Notes under the pieces: model-generated | Database searches by the model: none | What the model saw: the letters and a program-made list of their open reading frames with translations, nothing else | What the model was told of the DNA's origin: nothing | Assembly (NCBI GenBank): GCA_017614505.1 | Contig: JAGABT010000014.1 | Location: 62,001-126,000 of the forward strand | From: Selenomonadaceae bacterium | GTDB lineage: Bacteria; Bacillota; Negativicutes; Selenomonadales; Selenomonadaceae | Direction: 5' to 3' | DNA: 64,000 nucleotides | Translations under genes and position numbers: made by a program | Shown: piece by piece, positions 17,071-43,000 of the stretch | Position numbering within the stretch: position 1 is the first letter of the stretch | Layout of the letters: each line of letters begins with the position of its first letter

Positions 17071-17649
17071 ATGGCTATCAGTTTGAGAAAGGGTCAGAAA
17101 GTCGACCTCACTAAGGGCAACCCTAATTTGAAAAAAGTTCTGATTGGGCTCGGCTGGGACGTTAAACGCTATGACGGCGGTTTTGATTTCGACCTTGACG
17201 CGGCGGCATTTCTGCTCGGTGCAAGCGGCAAAGTCAATTCCGACGACGATTTTGTTTTCTACAACAACCTTAAGCACGTCAGCGGCTCCGTGGAACACAT
17301 GGGCGACAACCTTACCGGCGCGGGCGAAGGCGACGACGAAGAAATTAAAATCGACCTTGACAAGGTTCCTGCTAACGTCGAAAAAATTGACTTCACGGTT
17401 ACGATTTACGACGCCGAACAGCGCAGCCAGACTTTCGGGCAGGTTGAAAACGCCTATATTCGCGTGGTGAACGCCGAGACTAATGAGGAACTTGTCCGCT
17501 TCGATTTGGGCGAGGATTTTTCCGTTGAGACGGCGGTTGTCGTCGGCGAAATTTACCGCAACAAGGGCGAATGGAAGTTCAATGCTATTGGCTCCGGCTT
17601 CAGCGGCGGGCTTGCGGCGCTCGGCAGAAATTACGGCGTCAACGTCTAA
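17071..17649 (+). CDS. terD: TerD family stress protein
   Basis: The 192 residues form a single TerD domain of standard length. It begins [15 protein letters not shown], with calcium-site acidic residues in [17 protein letters not shown] and DDDFVFYNN, and ends [21 protein letters not shown] precedes the ATG. It lies 21 bases after the TerA-like gene and is closed by a terminator at 17682-17712. Its glycine codons show the GGCC-avoiding pattern very clearly: four of four before C are not GGC, while almost all others are GGC. Confidence 0.93.
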
Positions 17650-17681
17650 ACTTTTTCGTTCACTTACGCTTTTATTTTTTG

Positions 17682-17712
17682 ACCGAACGATTTTTCGCTC
17701 GGTTTTATTTTT
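17682..17712 (+). terminator. Rho-independent terminator after terD
   Basis: The arms ACCGAACGA (17682-17690) and TCGCTCGGT (17695-17703) pair with one internal mismatch and lead into a T-rich run. It should end the smpB-terA-terD transcript, though the next cyclase gene may receive read-through. Confidence 0.75.
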
Positions 17713-17724
17713 GCCAGGGAGGAT

Positions 17725-17760
17725 GTGGAGCGTGCGGTTGCCTTTGCCGTACAAATTTGA
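17725..17760 (+). CDS. Possible 11-residue leader ORF before the second diguanylate cyclase
   Basis: GGGAGG at 17717-17722 is the only Shine-Dalgarno here, 38 bases before the cyclase ATG. A GTG at 17725 opens VERAVAFAVQI, whose TGA overlaps the cyclase ATG (TGATG). This would allow translational coupling. The spacing from the Shine-Dalgarno to GTG is short, so the call is tentative. Confidence 0.3.
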   Translation: MERAVAFAVQI

Positions 17761-19352
17761 TGAACATTACAAAGGGTGTCAGAAACAAGCTATTTATGCT
17801 GCTGCTAATCATGGGCGCGCTGCCGTTCATAATCGTGACGATAGTTTCCGCAAGGACAATGGCGACACAGCTGGAGAAGAGCGCGGAACAGGACGGGCAG
17901 TTGAGAAATTCCATTGTTTCTGAACACATGACGGAGCTATTTGAAAAAAATTTTAACATACTTCACGAACTGGCGCTGAATCCGATGATTGTGCAGTATC
18001 TGACTTCGCCGGAAACATCTGATTACCGCGCGACGATAAATCTGCTGCACGACACGAATACGATTCTGGGCGATAAAAATATTGCGGCGATGACTGCGTC
18101 GGATACAAATCAGCTTATGCGGACAGACGGTGCAAAGCTGGTCAGTCTTATTGGACGCCAGCATTTTTATGAGGCGATGCACGGTCGGGATTTTATTTCT
18201 GACATAATCGTCAGCCGCTCCACAGGCAGGAGTATCGTTGTCGTTGAAGTTCCTGTGAAAGACCGGCTGAACAGACCCATTGGCATGGTGCAGCGGAATC
18301 TGGATCTGATTAGTCTGCAGCAATTTATCAGGGAGCAGGACACGCGCGAAATTTCCGTGATAGTAATGGACAGGGAAGGCAAGACCATTGCGCATTCGGA
18401 CAAGCATCTGGATTTTGAATTTGAGCAAAGCATTGACGGGCGGTACAAATACATTGCGGACAGAATGAGCGATTCTTCAGGTATATTCCGCACGAACGTT
18501 GACGGCGAAGATGCGATTGTCAGTTATTCGCGGAACTGGCTGACGGACTGGGCGGTTGTTACGGTTCAGCCATACCATTTTATTATGGAAAAAGTTCACG
18601 ATAAATTTATCACGCTGGCAGTTATTGGATTTTTTATGCTGACGTGCGTTTTCGTGACGGCTTACTTTTTATCCGAGCGCGCAACTAAGCCAATAATTGA
18701 AATTACCAACGCGGCGGACAATATTATCAAAGGCGGCAAAAATGTCGAAGAGCTGGAAATTAATTCGGACGACGAGCTTGGAAAAATGGCGGCGGCGTTT
18801 AACAAAATCCGCTCTTCGCGTGATGCCTACCGCCTTGAATCTGAACTTGACAAGCTCACTAAACTCTATAACAAGTCCACGACTGAAAATATCGGCAAGA
18901 TGAAAATTAAAACTTTCAGAGAGCAGGATTCTCCCGAAACTATCATGGCGCTCTACGTGATTGACCTGGACCACTTCAAAGAGGCGAATGATAATTTCGG
19001 ACACCAGTTCGGCGACAAAGTGCTTATGGAATTTGCGCGGAACCTTCGCAAGAAATTTCGCCCGAACGACTGCATTGGCAGATTCGGCGGCGATGAATTT
19101 GTGGTTATCATTGACAATCTGCCTGGCATGGAAATTGTAACGCGCAAGGCGCGCGATATTAAAAGGGTTGCCAGCGAGCTGGTTATCGACGGCAAGAACG
19201 CCGGAATTACCGCCAGCATTGGCGTCGCGATTGTTCCGCAGGACGGCACGGATTACGACCTGGTTTTCAAGGCGGCAGACAGAGCGCTTTACCACGTCAA
19301 GCAGAACGGGCGCAACGGCTTTTACTACGCCGGAGCCGAATCTATTGGCTGA
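17760..19352 (+). CDS. Membrane sensor diguanylate cyclase (Cache-like, HAMP, GGDEF)
   Basis: The protein has 530 residues. A transmembrane helix lies near 9-28. An extracellular sensor of about 250 residues resembles Cache domains (FISDIIVSRSTG, VQRNLDLISLQQFI). A second helix lies near 285-303, followed by HAMP (RATKPIIEITNAADNI) and a C-terminal GGDEF domain. The active motif GGDEF is near residue 442, with the inhibitory site RPND five residues before it. It probably makes cyclic di-GMP in response to an extracellular ligand. ATG at 17760 fits the membrane start but has no Shine-Dalgarno. Its end overlaps the convergent DUF192 gene by 11 bases. Confidence 0.9.
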   Translation: MNITKGVRNKLFMLLLIMGALPFIIVTIVSARTMATQLEKSAEQDGQLRNSIVSEHMTELFEKNFNILHELALNPMIVQYLTSPETSDYRATINLLHDTNTILGDKNIAAMTASDTNQLMRTDGAKLVSLIGRQHFYEAMHGRDFISDIIVSRSTGRSIVVVEVPVKDRLNRPIGMVQRNLDLISLQQFIREQDTREISVIVMDREGKTIAHSDKHLDFEFEQSIDGRYKYIADRMSDSSGIFRTNVDGEDAIVSYSRNWLTDWAVVTVQPYHFIMEKVHDKFITLAVIGFFMLTCVFVTAYFLSERATKPIIEITNAADNIIKGGKNVEELEINSDDELGKMAAAFNKIRSSRDAYRLESELDKLTKLYNKSTTENIGKMKIKTFREQDSPETIMALYVIDLDHFKEANDNFGHQFGDKVLMEFARNLRKKFRPNDCIGRFGGDEFVVIIDNLPGMEIVTRKARDIKRVASELVIDGKNAGITASIGVAIVPQDGTDYDLVFKAADRALYHVKQNGRNGFYYAGAESIG

Positions 19353-36893: not shown

Positions 36894-37370
36894 GTGGCTA
36901 AGAAAAAAGAAATTCCGCCGCCCGCTAAAATTTTCACGATTGGTTTTACGCGAAAGAGCGCCGAAACTTTTTTTGAACTGCTTGAGCTCCATCAAATCAC
37001 CGAAGTTATTGACGTGCGGCTCTATGCCAACACGCAGTTCGCCGGTTTTGCGAAGGCGCCGGATTTGAAATTTTTTCTGAAGCGCGTCAGCTCGATTGAG
37101 TACCGCCGCGATTTGAAATTTGCGCCGACGGAGGAGCTGTTCAAATCTTACCAGAAGCAGATTATTACGTGGGCGGATTACGAAAAAATTTTCGCGCAGA
37201 TTATGAAGGAGCGGCACATTGAATCGCACATTCAGCGGAACTACTCTGACTCGCCGGAATTTCGGTACTGCCTGCTTTGCACGGAAGTCAGCGCGGAAAA
37301 TTGTCACCGGCGGCTTGTTGCGGAAAAGTTTGCCGAAGTCTTTGACGGAATGGAGATAATCCACCTGTGA
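36894..37370 (+). CDS. DUF488 family protein
   Basis: The 158 residues from GTG (GCGAGGTGA upstream) fit DUF488: FTIGFTRKSAETFFELL near the start, VIDVRLYANTQFAGFAKAPDL, and the cysteine-containing YCLLCTEVSAENCHRRLVAE near the end. DUF488 proteins have no settled function; conserved cysteine and histidine residues suggest metal or nucleic acid binding. The next gene starts within its stop codon. Confidence 0.85.
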   Translation: MAKKKEIPPPAKIFTIGFTRKSAETFFELLELHQITEVIDVRLYANTQFAGFAKAPDLKFFLKRVSSIEYRRDLKFAPTEELFKSYQKQIITWADYEKIFAQIMKERHIESHIQRNYSDSPEFRYCLLCTEVSAENCHRRLVAEKFAEVFDGMEIIHL

Positions 37371-37840
37371 AAAAAATCATCGTGATTCTCGCCAGAAGCG
37401 CCATTCAGCCGGAAAATTGTTTTTTCTCCAGCGCGACGTGGAAAAAATTCGGACACTGGAACTTGAGCGAGTTTGAAAAATATTGCGGATTCGACAGCAC
37501 GGATTTTATTTTCTACGACAGTTCGCGCAGGCTTGAACCGGCGGCGATTGATAAATCTAATCGGCGAAAGTCGTTGCTGATTCTGCCTGTTGAAAATATT
37601 TCGGTTAATGTCAAGTCATTCGATGACGGCGTTAAATTCCGCGCCAGCTTTGACTATAACGGTACGCGCTACGAAGATTTTGCCGTGGGCGATATTGACC
37701 TGCGCGAGAAATTTTCTGGACAGGGCGAGGGTGAATTTTTTGTTGCGGAGAGCGCGGTTGCTACGTTCAGCCTGACTAAACCGTTCAAGGACGGGCGCTG
37801 CTACAAGGTTTTGGCTCAGCTTTGGAGCCACAGCGTCTGA
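37367..37840 (+). CDS. Hypothetical protein coupled to DUF488
   Basis: The 157 residues begin at a GTG that overlaps the DUF488 TGA (GTGA), implying tight translational coupling. The text (KIIVILARSAIQPENCFFSS, FRASFDYNGTRYEDFAVGDI) resembles the small beta-rich proteins I recall next to DUF488 genes, called dual OB-fold-like, but I cannot confirm it. Its last 25 bases overlap the end of the convergent condensation-domain gene. No signal peptide or membrane segment is present. Confidence 0.7.
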   Translation: MKKIIVILARSAIQPENCFFSSATWKKFGHWNLSEFEKYCGFDSTDFIFYDSSRRLEPAAIDKSNRRKSLLILPVENISVNVKSFDDGVKFRASFDYNGTRYEDFAVGDIDLREKFSGQGEGEFFVAESAVATFSLTKPFKDGRCYKVLAQLWSHSV

Positions 37841-39639
37841 TATTTTTCCATTTGCTGGAGTGCGTGCTGGAGTTTCGATTTGGCAATATCCGGCCGCTCG
37901 CGCAGAAATTCCTGCATTCGCGTCAGCGGAATTAAAATCAGCATGGCTTTTTCGGTAAGCACTTCGGCTGAGATTATCGCGCGTCGTTTCTGCAGGAAAA
38001 CCGTTTCGTTAATCCAGCCGCCAGCCTTAACAATATCCAGCGCGTTGAACCAGCCGTCGCCGGTATCGAGACTCCGCGCCAGTTTTCCTTCGACGACGAA
38101 CACCAGATTTTTATCGAGAGTTTCGCCGGAAATTCTGTCGCCTTCAAAGCGCGTGAGAATTTTGGAGTCGCCGAAAAATTGCGCCGTGCCGACGTACTCG
38201 CCCTGCAGAATTTTGTTTTTGGAAACGAAATCCGCAATAATTTTCTTTTCGTCCTGCCTCTGAAACTGCGTCACGCTTTCCAGTCCGATAAAAATCTGCG
38301 GCAGTAAATTTTCAAGGAACTCCTCAAACGTCGCGTTCCAGTAAACCAGCATTCGCCGCAAAACCAGCGCGTAAGTTTCCGCCAGCCGCTCGCCCGCGTC
38401 GGGGAAAAACTGATTCGCGTCATACTGGAACGTTACCGACAGGCTTTTTTCCGCGTACTGGAAATAGACGCCGAGTTTCATTCTTTGAGCGTCCCAGAAA
38501 TTCCGCGCGACAATTATCCCTTCCGGCGCCGACGGCACCTGCGAATAAAATTTTTCTTCCGCCTTGAAGTCCAGAAAACTCAGGAAGTGGTCGAAAAGTT
38601 TGCCCCTGCGCGAAGTCAGCTTTTGCTCCTCCGCCCAGTCGAACGAGCTGTACGGCTGTGAAACTACCAGCTGCTTGAACTGCTGCCCGACGATACTTTC
38701 AAGCGTGGTGTCCCATTCGCTTTTCAGCCGCACCGGCATAAGATTCAGCGCGAATTTCCCGCTGGCGCTGGTTTTAGAGACGAGCTGGCAGAAAACCGTA
38801 TCTTTGGAATTATTCATCGCCTGCAGCATAAAACCCCACGCCGTCTGCAGCGCGACCATAAGCATTGCGCGGCTCCCCTGCGTCCTTACGCGCAAATCCG
38901 ATAAAACGTCGGCGGGAATTTTCATGCGGTACGCCTGTTCGCGATACTCGCCGGAACTTTCTTTCAAGTAGGGAACTTTCGGCGGCGGCGGCAAATTTTC
39001 CAGTACTTCCGCCCAGTAATCCCGCACGCGCAGTTCCATATAAGTCGTCTGAGAAGTCGACAGCGGCGGGCTGATTTTCTTATATTTTCCGCCGATAATC
39101 ACTGCGTTGAAAAAATTTGTGTCGCTGAATCTGTCGGCAATCAGCTGGGACATTGTAACCAGCACGGCGGCTTCTTCCGGCGCAGTCTGAAAAACCGAAA
39201 AGCGAATCAGATAATCGCGCTGAAGGTCGAAACCCTTGCGGCGGTCTGCCTCCATGATTTTCGTAAGCGTTTCGTCGAGTTCGTCGCCGCTTAGCTTGAG
39301 CATGCGGAAAACAACTTCAGGAATAGTACTGCGCTTCCCAAAAATGACCTTGAGCGTGCGCGTGCCGACGTTGCAGTAATTCGCGCGGAAATTTTCATCT
39401 TCATCAATCAGACTGTTGACGGCGCGGTTAAATTGTATCGGCTTAATATCGCCGCGAACTTTGTACAGAGTCTGAACGCAGAAATGCGGCGACGCGAAAG
39501 TTTTACGCTCAAAAAATTGCGCCTCGTCCGCCGTGAGCTCGCGAATCTTCGTGATTTTGTTCATGCTGTAATTCGGATCTTCGACGAACTTGCCGTAAAT
39601 CTGTTCCAGAACGCTTTTTTCGGTTGGCTTGAGTTCCAA
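37816..39639 (-). CDS. Condensation-like domain fused to a cyclic nucleotide-binding-like domain
   Basis: The protein has about 607 residues. Residues 1-460 follow the plan of NRPS/acyltransferase condensation domains: KIRELTADEAQFFERKTFAS, KVRGDIKPIQFNRAVNSLI, and a pocket near 163-171 where HHxxxDG is replaced by MSQLIADRF, so the catalytic histidines are lost. About 470-607 resembles a CRP-type cyclic nucleotide-binding fold (NLVFVVEGKLARSLDTGDGW, ISAEVLTEKAMLILIPLTRM) with no DNA-binding helix. There is no adenylation or carrier domain nearby. It may be a ligand-controlled acyl-binding or non-catalytic protein. TTG at 39639 has AAAGGA at good spacing; GTG at 39648 is the alternative. Confidence 0.7.
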   Translation of the reverse strand: MELKPTEKSVLEQIYGKFVEDPNYSMNKITKIRELTADEAQFFERKTFASPHFCVQTLYKVRGDIKPIQFNRAVNSLIDEDENFRANYCNVGTRTLKVIFGKRSTIPEVVFRMLKLSGDELDETLTKIMEADRRKGFDLQRDYLIRFSVFQTAPEEAAVLVTMSQLIADRFSDTNFFNAVIIGGKYKKISPPLSTSQTTYMELRVRDYWAEVLENLPPPPKVPYLKESSGEYREQAYRMKIPADVLSDLRVRTQGSRAMLMVALQTAWGFMLQAMNNSKDTVFCQLVSKTSASGKFALNLMPVRLKSEWDTTLESIVGQQFKQLVVSQPYSSFDWAEEQKLTSRRGKLFDHFLSFLDFKAEEKFYSQVPSAPEGIIVARNFWDAQRMKLGVYFQYAEKSLSVTFQYDANQFFPDAGERLAETYALVLRRMLVYWNATFEEFLENLLPQIFIGLESVTQFQRQDEKKIIADFVSKNKILQGEYVGTAQFFGDSKILTRFEGDRISGETLDKNLVFVVEGKLARSLDTGDGWFNALDIVKAGGWINETVFLQKRRAIISAEVLTEKAMLILIPLTRMQEFLRERPDIAKSKLQHALQQMEKYQTLWLQS

Positions 39640-39764
39640 AATAAACACTTCCTTTCGGTGTGAACATTCGCCGTCTGCGCGGAAAATCTTTCTTTTGGGC
39701 AGGGCAGGAATAATCCGGCGGCGTCAAGAATTAACCTGTAAAATTTGCAAAGGAGATGTTCGTT

Positions 39765-41183
39765 GTGGGATTTATCAGAGCGGCGCTTGAGGCTGCCAGC
39801 GGAGTTTTGGGCGACCAGTGGAAGGAATATTTTTACTGCGACAGTCTGAGCGCGGATATTCTGGTTGCAAAGGGTCATCGCCGGACGCGGCGCGGCAGTT
39901 CTAATTCGGGTGACGACAATATTATTACGCAGGGTTCAATCGTGGCGGTTAATAACGGGCAGTGCATGATGGTCGTCGAAAACGGCAAGGTCGTTGACTA
40001 CATTGCAGAGCCAGGCGAATACAAATATGACCGCGGCACCGAGCCTTCGCTTTTTTCCGGCGGCGACTTAGCGGTCAACATTCAGGAAATTTTTTTCCAG
40101 ATTGGCAAGCGTTTCACATTCGGCGGCGATACCGGCAAGGACCAGCGCGTTTACTACTTCAACACCAAGGAAATTGTCGGCAACAAGTACGGCACGCCCA
40201 CGCCAATTCCGTTCCGCGTCGTCGATAACAACATCGGGCTCGACGTTGACATTTCGATTAAATGTTTCGGCTCGTACAGCTACAAAATCGTCAACCCCGT
40301 GCTTTTCTATACGAACGTCTGCGGCAACGTCCGCGACACGTACAATCGCTCGGAAATTGACACGCAGCTGAAGACTGAGCTTATGACGGCGCTCCAGCCC
40401 GCCTTCGCGAAAATTTCCGAAAAGGGCATTCGTTACAGCGCCCTGCCCGCGCATACGACGGAAATTGCCGACGCGCTTAATGAAGTTCTCAGCAAAAAGT
40501 GGGGCGACCTGCGCGGCATTCAGGTAGTTTCCTTCGGCGTCTCGAACGTCAGCGCGAATGAAGAAGACGTTGCCATGATTAAGGAAATGCAGCGTACCGG
40601 CGCGTTGAGAAATCCTGCGATGGCGGCGGCTCACATTACCAACGCGCAGGCGGCGGCTATGCAGACAGCGGCTGGAAATACGGCTGGCGCGGCGATTGGC
40701 TTTATGGGAATGAACATGGCGCAAAACGCTGGCGGGCTTAACGCGAATAATCTTTTCGCTATCGCGCAGCAGCAACAGGCTCAGCAAATGCAGCAGCAAC
40801 AGCAGCAAACTCCGCCGCCAGCTCCGGCGCAGAATACCGGCTGGAAGTGCGAAAGTTGCGGTCACGCTGGCAATACCGGCAAATTCTGCGCGAACTGCGG
40901 CAGTCCCAGAGTTGTTGAAAAACCTGCTGGCTGGAAGTGCGACGCCTGCGGGCATGAAGGCAATACCGGCAAATTCTGCAGCGAATGCGGCAAGCCGAAA
41001 CCTTCCGCCGAAGCTGGCTGGACTTGCCTGAAATGCGGACACAGCGGCAATACCGGCAAATTCTGCGCGGACTGCGGCGCGCCTAAGGATGCGGCTCCCT
41101 CGAACCAGTGGACCTGCCCTGACTGCGGCACTGTCAACAAGGGCAGAAGATTTTGCGCCGAATGCGGCAAGCCCAGACCATGA
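39765..41183 (+). CDS. SPFH-domain protein with four zinc ribbons (YdjI-like)
   Basis: The protein has 472 residues. It opens GFIRAALEAASGVLGDQWKE and FYCDSL as in Bacillus YdjI, then an SPFH/band-7-like domain to about residue 300, a Gln-rich stretch (QQQQAQQMQQQQQQ), and four C-terminal zinc ribbons of 4 cysteines each (first WKCESCGHAGNTGKFCANCG). In B. subtilis YdjG, YdjH and YdjI form a membrane complex that receives PspA under membrane stress. GTG at 39765 with AAAGGAG upstream restores the family start. Its TGA overlaps the ATG of the restriction gene. No pspA is in the window. Confidence 0.88.
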   Translation: MGFIRAALEAASGVLGDQWKEYFYCDSLSADILVAKGHRRTRRGSSNSGDDNIITQGSIVAVNNGQCMMVVENGKVVDYIAEPGEYKYDRGTEPSLFSGGDLAVNIQEIFFQIGKRFTFGGDTGKDQRVYYFNTKEIVGNKYGTPTPIPFRVVDNNIGLDVDISIKCFGSYSYKIVNPVLFYTNVCGNVRDTYNRSEIDTQLKTELMTALQPAFAKISEKGIRYSALPAHTTEIADALNEVLSKKWGDLRGIQVVSFGVSNVSANEEDVAMIKEMQRTGALRNPAMAAAHITNAQAAAMQTAAGNTAGAAIGFMGMNMAQNAGGLNANNLFAIAQQQQAQQMQQQQQQTPPPAPAQNTGWKCESCGHAGNTGKFCANCGSPRVVEKPAGWKCDACGHEGNTGKFCSECGKPKPSAEAGWTCLKCGHSGNTGKFCADCGAPKDAAPSNQWTCPDCGTVNKGRRFCAECGKPRP

Positions 41184-42013
41184 AAAATATCATCGACGCT
41201 GTCAAAGTTTTAATCACGCAGAATCGAATTAATTTGAACGCCGCGCAAAGCGGGCGCAACAGAATTAACGCTGTCGGCTCCGCGCTTGAAGACTACGTGA
41301 AAAATCTTTTCGCCGACAGTTTCGATTTGCCGCCTGCTGAAAAACTTGAACGCTGGAGCGAAACTTTTTCATACCTCGGCAACAACGCCAATCCGCCAGA
41401 TATGATGCTGAAAAATGGTGATGCTGTCGAGGTTAAGAAAATCGAATCGCCGGACGCGGCGCTCGCGCTGAACAGCAGTTATCCCAAGCAAATTCTGCGC
41501 AGGGATAATCCCATGATTTCCAGCGCCTGCCGTGACGCCGAAGACTGGACGGAAAAAGATATTCTGTACGTGGTCGGCGTTGTGAACGGCGATAAACTCA
41601 AGCATTTGTGCATGGTTTACGGGCGCGATTATTGCGCGTCCGAGAAATGTTACGACAGGATTCGACAGCGTATCAAGAATGGCGTTGAAACTATCGAAGG
41701 CGTGGAATTTTCGCCGACGCGCGAGCTTGGCAGGATAAATCGCGTAGACCCGCTCGGAATTACCTATCTTAGGGTTCGCGGAATGTGGCACATCGAAAAT
41801 CCGTAGAAAGTTTTCAGCTACGTTTATCAGCGCGACCTCAATGCGGAGTTTAACTTCATGTGTATCGTCAGCGAAAATAAATGGCGTCAACTTGACAACT
41901 GCGAAAGTTTAACGGATTTGAATCCAAATCTGAAAATTTCTGACGTTCGCATAAAAGATCCCGATAATCCCTGCAGATTTAGCAGCGCGAAACTGATTCA
42001 GTACAAAATTTGA
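41180..42013 (+). pseudogene. NgoPII-type (GGCC) restriction endonuclease interrupted by an in-frame TAG
   Basis: Read from ATG 41180 (overlapping the YdjI-like stop, ATGA), the frame runs 208 codons to TAG at 41804-41806. It then stays open 68 more codons in the same frame to TGA at 42011-42013. Read through, the product is 277 residues, the length I recall for NgoPII. Features include SYLGNNANPPDMMLKNGDAV and VEVKKIES (the PD-(D/E)xK core), GRINRVDPLGITYLRVRGMW, and after the stop KVFSYVYQRDLNAEFNFM and DPDNPCRFSSAKLIQYKI. The family cuts GGCC. The methylase follows 9 bases later. TAG is an ordinary stop elsewhere here (e.g. tadA), so recoding is unlikely. The 208-residue product is probably inactive. 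Confidence 0.85.
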
Positions 42014-42022
42014 GGTGACACT

Positions 42023-43000
42023 GTGCGATTGATTAGTTTGTTCAGCGGCTGCGGCGGACTTGATTTAGGCTTTGAGCGCGCTGGTTTTGAAATTCCCATT
42101 GCCAATGAATTTGATGCCTCGATTTGGGAAACTTTTCAACTTAATCATCCATCGACTGAACTGATTAAAAGCGATGTACGGAAATTATCTGCGGATATTT
42201 TTCCCTGCGATATTGACGGGATAATTGGCGGACCGCCGTGTCAGTCATGGTCAGAGGCGGGTGAAGGGCGCGGAATTAAAGATTCACGCGGGCAGCTTTT
42301 TTTCGACTACATCAGAATTTTGCAGACGGTTAAGCCAAAATTTTTTCTTGCTGAAAATGTCAGCGGTATGCTTGCCAAGCGTCATTTCAGCGCGGTAAAA
42401 TTTATTCTGGAACAATTCAGAGACTGCGGCTACGACGTGACGATTCATCTTGTCAATGCTAAAAATTATGGCGTCGCGCAGGAACGCAAGAGAATTTTTT
42501 TCACGGGTTTCCGCAACGATTTGAATGCTGATTTTAAATTTCCTGCGGGGAATAAGCCGAATTTAAATCTGCGCGATGTTATCTGGGATTTGCAATTTTC
42601 CGCAGTCCCCACCGCTAAAAATAATCAGCATAATTCTACCGCTGAAAACAGCAATGAATTTTTTACCGGCTCATTCTCGACAATTTTTATGAGCAGAAAC
42701 CGCGTCAAATCGTGGGACGAGCCAGCTTTTACCGTTCAGGCTTCGGGGCGCCATTGCCAGCTTCACCCGCAGGCTCCTAAAATGGAATTTGTCAGCCAGA
42801 ATGTTCGCCGTTTCGTTTCCGGCAAGGAAAATCTCTACCGGCGAATGACTGTTCGTGAAATTGCGCGGATTCAAGGATTTCCCGACGAGTTCAAATTCAT
42901 TTACGCCGATACCGACGACGCGTACAAAATGATTGGCAACGCTGTACCCGTTCCTCTCGCTCATGAAATTGCTGTTGCGATTCGTAATTATTTAGATTGA
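42023..43000 (+). CDS. DNA (cytosine-5) methyltransferase, partner of the GGCC endonuclease
   Basis: The 325 residues from GTG (TGAGGTGA upstream) carry the cytosine-5 methylase motifs in order: [16 protein letters not shown] (AdoMet), GGPPCQSWS with the catalytic cysteine near residue 73, [16 protein letters not shown], a target-recognition region around [19 protein letters not shown], and the closing [15 protein letters not shown]. Size, order and the adjoining endonuclease fit an M.NgoPII-like enzyme modifying GGCC. It appears intact, so the genome may still be methylated although the nuclease is broken. It sits inside the YdjI-YdjG-YdjH cluster and is followed 10 bases later by the YdjG-like gene. 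Confidence 0.92.

Follow-up and report, generated by a model that had tools for sequence, protein, structure and literature searches.

A condensation-fold protein fused to a CRP-like sensor domain in Selenomonadaceae and its linkage to partner-switching genes

The window, a 64,000-nucleotide stretch of DNA from an uncultured Selenomonadaceae bacterium of the rumen, encodes a protein in which a condensation fold is followed by a CRP-like cyclic nucleotide-binding domain (C-cNBD). From sequence comparison, we read this protein as a catalytically dead condensation-fold pseudoenzyme derived from an NRPS. The dead condensation domain, the sensor domain and, in many relatives, an operon shared with a phosphorylation switch indicate that the protein is probably a regulator rather than an enzyme. 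The more specific proposal, that this NRPS-derived pseudoenzyme is a regulatory part of a partner-switching pathway, probably its target or output, has in our judgment about an even chance of being correct. The features of the gene are as follows.

37816 to 39639, minus strand: C-cNBD fusion gene, 607 aa from the TTG at 39639, or 610 aa if the GTG at 39648 is used.
39650 to 39654, minus strand: Shine-Dalgarno-like AAGGA, read from the sequence, 10 nt before the TTG start.
38353 to 39525, minus strand: condensation-type domain, residues 42-432 (Pfam PF00668, E 5e-24).
39127 to 39153, minus strand: MSQLIADRF, residues 166-174, at the exact position of HHxxxDG in the homologue alignment.
37849 to 38238, minus strand: CRP-like cNBD fold by profile, spanning about residues 471-600 up to and including the C-helix, with no helix-turn-helix (HTH).
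37969 to 38022, minus strand: place of the phosphate-binding cassette (PBC), residues 543-560, GGWINETVFLQKRRAIIS, with the canonical Gly and Arg not conserved.

The AAGGA element (39654-39650) lies 1 nt ahead of the GTG and 10 nt ahead of the TTG at 39639-39637, a spacing that makes the TTG, which was also the gene end given in the earlier note, the likelier start. Residues are numbered throughout by the 610-aa reading from the GTG. The 3′ end of the gene is overlapped on the opposite strand by a Dual-OB (DuOB) gene (37367-37840), which aligns only to the C-terminal part of its profile (67-209 of 210); the 217-aa homologue at locus L031 is longer. The neighboring DUF488, DuOB and SPFH genes were judged incidental, their recurrence being found mainly in close relatives. 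Elsewhere in the window, an NgoPII-type restriction endonuclease gene is followed by a C5-cytosine methyltransferase gene (41153-43000; Pfam E 1e-89 and 1e-97), and positions 17571-19352 encode a protein that was considered as a SpoIIE protein on a too wide HMM match and rejected, since Pfam gives dCache-HAMP-GGDEF, a likely diguanylate cyclase.

The assignment of the N-terminal part to the condensation fold is strengthened by a 35-member family profile, which over positions 22-445 matches the solved NRPS condensation domains of bacitracin synthetase 3 (6e-53) and tyrocidine synthase 2 (1e-44). Several fold positions are nearly invariant among 99 aligned homologues, including W212 and W271 (99 of 99), R88 (98) and R149 (97), and K63, Q59 and H354 are likewise strongly conserved, as are R88 and W271. 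The fold of a catalytic NRPS condensation domain is thus found by profile, and its HHxxxDG motif and second histidine are absent. This second histidine has a central role in condensation domains and is gone in 95 of the 99 homologues, its position being occupied by Gln in 72, Glu in 9, Arg in 6, Gly in 4 and His in only 4. Neither the HH pair nor a first-position histidine occurs in any of the 99. The aspartate of the motif is retained in 40 and the glycine in 4. No adenylation or carrier partners were seen in the same gene or cluster near the C-cNBD gene in the window.

The C-terminal domain is less evident from the single sequence, in which Pfam cNMP_binding (PF00027) matches residues 508-584 at E 4e-4, below the Pfam cut-off. 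With the family profile, positions of about 468-597 match CRP/FNR-type domains (2pqq, 9e-10; Escherichia coli CRP, about 1e-4), and the C-terminal part of the profile alone gives 1.3e-11 and about 2e-6, respectively. Profile comparison finds no similarity between the two halves of the protein, which are therefore two different domains. Structure prediction was of low confidence, with a pLDDT of 31 from the single sequence and, for the cNBD modeled with one relative (two sequences only), a pLDDT of 43 and a pTM of 0.45; a Foldseek search with this low-confidence cNBD model returned mostly cNBD-containing chains, all at E > 0.3 and TM of about 0.3, values too weak to count as evidence. The PBC signature, GE followed by R[ST], is not conserved. 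The glycine position is Asn in 94 of 99 homologues, the next position is Glu in 55 and Pro in 32, and no invariant arginine is present among the 99, which makes canonical binding of cAMP or another cyclic nucleotide unlikely; a ligand other than a canonical cyclic nucleotide is possible. The chain ends about 20 residues past the cNBD core. Because it stops after the C-helix region, the protein has the cNMP-binding sensor fold of a CRP/FNR regulator by profile and lacks the C-terminal HTH or any other DNA-binding domain, and a reading as a transcription factor was dropped. The earlier note had described the fusion of the two folds in one gene, the replacement of HHxxxDG by MSQLIADRF and the missing DNA-binding helix, all of which are borne out here; its proposal of cyclic-nucleotide gating fares poorly in view of the PBC. 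It had also called the domain combination unfamiliar, in agreement with our failure to find a paper naming both a condensation domain and a cyclic nucleotide-binding domain, in a search that reached few subscription journals and is not proof of novelty.

The C-cNBD protein is present in 109 of 189 Selenomonadaceae genomes and is full length in scores of them. The nearest named record is a sheep MAG at 86% identity, and a scan of genome contigs yielded one locus only. Comparison of the window copy with that of the sheep MAG gives a dN/dS of 0.22 (0.20 for the condensation domain and 0.26 for the cNBD), and both domains are under purifying selection. A chance ORF or assembly artifact was rejected on the basis of the conserved full length and the dN/dS of about 0.2, and a reading as an NRPS fragment was rejected because the cNBD and the full length are conserved. 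Elsewhere in the class there are only a few carriers (genomes G090, G101 and G677); the C-terminal part of the G677 protein, searched against the whole class, gave no further members, and a phylum search outside the host family with the cNBD profile gave almost only frames of ordinary CRP regulator length. A search of viral contigs gave no relative, and one of plasmids gave no full-length match, only NRPS-type condensation domains. The genomes are mostly drafts, which leaves some doubt over the absence or unlinked position of genes close to the end of a contig. Genes of the relatives were called as mechanical ORFs with HMM matches in support.

The carrier G677 (locus L161), from another family of the class, bears on the origin of the fusion. 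Its protein has both Pfam domains above the cut-off and the motif PHITFDG, in which the second histidine and the DG pair are present. The gene is flanked on one side by an NRPS with four condensation matches and a protein with two carrier domains, and on the other by an Sfp-type PPTase. In two maximum-likelihood trees, G677 is basal in the C-cNBD clade (clade support 98/99 and 100/98), followed by G090 (PQMIADG) and then G101 (PQLIEDN and PQIIADG). The motif thus appears to decay stepwise along the tree; with midpoint-rooted trees, this order is an interpretation that falls short of proof. The C-cNBD family would then go back to an ancestor of the same architecture that served in an NRPS cluster. 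The series from NRPS-linked PHxxxDG through PQxxxDG to no motif, often signaling-linked, would record how a domain of an assembly-line enzyme became a signaling part. The earlier note had remarked that no NRPS gene is nearby, and none was seen near the gene in the window; one lies on another contig of the same genome. It had also named, as evidence against its reading, homologues with an intact HHxxxDG and NRPS partners. NRPS partners do exist for the basal relative, the motif of which is PHxxxDG. This agrees in part with the contrary evidence that the note had named, but it accounts for where the fusion came from and leaves the fusion itself standing. The NRPS-linked basal relative, the NRPS of the same genome and the linkage of relatives to partner-switching genes all go beyond that note.

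Outside the window's genus, about half of the C-cNBD loci lie on the same strand and in an apparent operon with genes for a dCache-HAMP-SpoIIE phosphatase, a STAS protein and/or an RsbW-like kinase (HATPase_c_2), as identified by Pfam. In a six-frame HMM scan, 29 of 81 loci had at least one same-strand STAS, HATPase_c_2 or SpoIIE gene no more than 4.5 kb away; the window's genus accounts for 3 of these (among 29 loci) and other genera for 26 (among 52). With 11 further loci, 7 of them linked, the total is 36 of 92 loci, in ten genera and with several gene orders; the window copy is unlinked. The STAS gene is often only 18-135 bp from the C-cNBD gene, and the S-A-G-L-R loop of the STAS partners still has its serine. 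Chance linkage was roughly estimated from gene counts and genome sizes at a few per cent per locus, and the binomial test on linkage used rounded counts (33/60). Of the 109 genomes with the family, 103 have strong SpoIIE matches (E below about 1e-40, counted by hand from tables), as do 22 of the 80 without it. The genus-level figure, 12 of 14 genera with the family and 3 of 16 without (Fisher p 7e-4), is preferred because kinship among genomes inflates the genome-level one. Inspection by eye of the neighboring ORFs in the operons examined brought up no sigma factor. In the window's genus, the C-cNBD gene is away from the module in the window and at 26 of the 29 loci, and we thus infer the role of the window copy. 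Several genomes of the window's genus have SpoIIE genes and no C-cNBD gene, showing that C-cNBD is not an obligate part of the system. In the C-cNBD operons of one genus, STAS is followed by a protein of about 206 aa without a Pfam match, the N terminus of which looks faintly HATPase-like by eye (L076:11107-11727, L043:11537-12202, L078, L080, L082 and L084).

A second association of condensation folds with these genes is found in the same bacteria, in the form of STAS-condensation (STAS-C) fusions of about 540 residues that keep YHxxxDG (L186, L187, L188, L189, L190, L192, L193, L195, L198, L199 and L200, all in other Selenomonadaceae genomes). These adjoin SpoIIE phosphatases and/or MATE-HATPase_c_2 fusions and sometimes an A-T-C NRPS module. 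In the tree, their condensation domains form a clade separate from that of C-cNBD, which suggests at least two separate occasions on which a condensation fold became tied to partner switching. The MATE-HATPase fusion is also present in two C-cNBD operons, L076 (4503-6245) and L078 (13501-15255); such fusions of a MATE exporter with an RsbW-like HATPase_c_2 domain recur in NRPS, STAS-C and C-cNBD loci, including L129, L126, L202, L114 and others. The window's genome has, on contig C5 (L114:9254-19900), an NRPS of C-A-T-C-A-T-reductase architecture together with PPTase, MATE-HATPase, SpoIIE and STAS genes, possibly a peptide-aldehyde cluster under partner-switch control, and on contig C16 a STAS-HATPase-SpoIIE set. 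Contig C1 (L201:2161-7961) carries three tandem lone condensation genes and then a MATE-family gene.

Were partner switching to act on the C-cNBD protein, the membrane dCache-HAMP-SpoIIE phosphatase would sense an outside signal and dephosphorylate the STAS protein, and the RsbW-like kinase would phosphorylate it again. Binding of the STAS protein (or the kinase) to the C-cNBD protein would depend on the phosphorylation state. The condensation fold may still serve to bind a carrier-borne peptide, a small NRPS product or a protein partner, and the cNBD could be a second input or a dimer-holding unit. The unlinked window copy would work in trans with partner-switch genes on other contigs. In this scheme, the physical interaction, direction of control, ligand, output and trans action of the window copy are steps that we infer. 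A broader view is more tentative: condensation-fold proteins may have been wired into Selenomonadaceae partner switching at least twice independently, once as C-cNBD in trans with STAS and once as the STAS-C fusion, together with MATE exporters that carry the switch kinase as a fused domain. If so, peptide assembly, pseudoenzyme relatives and product export would be under direct SpoIIE/STAS/kinase control, not via a sigma factor.

One rival reading is an NRPS accessory protein that takes no direct part in partner switching, in which the non-catalytic condensation domain would dock in trans on a carrier protein or the NRPS and gate or proofread peptide assembly. The basal relative sits beside an NRPS and a double carrier-domain protein, and the window's genome has its own two-module NRPS with a PPTase. 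However, no NRPS was noticed beside the Selenomonadaceae copies examined, the genes that recur in linkage are signaling genes, and several family-carrying genomes, which are incomplete drafts, have no condensation match over the 1e-25 cut-off, and we regard the accessory role as unlikely. An active enzyme of changed chemistry, in which the fold would transfer acyl or aminoacyl groups via other residues, would give a reason for the conservation of K63, Q59, R88, H354 and W271. Such an enzyme would have had to dispense with the histidine that is central in known condensation domains and, mostly, with the DG pair, losses that appear stepwise along the tree, and it seems very unlikely.

Two further alternatives concern the cNBD and the gene linkage. 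The cyclic-nucleotide-gated acyl-binding protein of the earlier note draws on a cNBD fold that is clear by profile and on GGDEF proteins in the genome, such as the one described above at 17571-19352, yet the Gly, Glu and Arg of the PBC are not conserved, and we consider this the least probable of the explanations weighed here. Linkage to partner switching could instead be incidental and the function of the family unrelated. SpoIIE, STAS and HATPase genes are numerous in Selenomonadaceae, so some adjacency may indeed be incidental, and copies in the window's genus are mostly unlinked. Recurrence in ten genera with different gene orders and tight spacing, the genus-level co-occurrence and the independent STAS-C fusions all speak against coincidence, which is quite improbable as a full account.

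Partner switching is known mainly as a means of sigma-factor control; for several of these systems no output is known. If the output here were a condensation-fold protein, it would be a new kind of target for partner switching, and peptide natural-product chemistry in rumen bacteria would be connected to a membrane sensor. No paper on a STAS domain together with a condensation domain was found in the search, which reached few subscription journals.

Compared with the condensation domains of NRPSs (PF00668; tyrocidine, bacitracin and surfactin synthetases), C-cNBD shares homology by profile over about 400 residues and the conserved Trp and Arg positions; it differs in lacking HH, in having mostly Gln for the second histidine, in standing outside an NRPS chain and in its fusion to a cNBD. 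Similar to CRP/FNR-type cNMP-binding domains (PF00027), it has by profile a sensor fold with a C-helix, whereas it lacks the HTH, does not conserve the PBC and places the sensor after a condensation fold. The STAS-C fusions resemble it in tying a condensation fold to STAS, SpoIIE and MATE-HATPase genes and differ in their separate clade, their retained YHxxxDG and the absence of a cNBD. In the canonical partner switch, the phosphatase reactivates the STAS protein, which binds the kinase so that the sigma factor is released; there are also non-canonical systems, the partners of which are different or unknown (PMC8256260). The operons of the C-cNBD relatives resemble RsbU/RsbV/RsbW and SpoIIE/SpoIIAA/SpoIIAB (PMC8256260) in combining a SpoIIE-type phosphatase, a STAS protein that keeps its serine and an HATPase_c_2 kinase. 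They differ from those systems in that no sigma factor was noticed in the operons examined, and their recurring extra gene encodes a condensation-fold protein.
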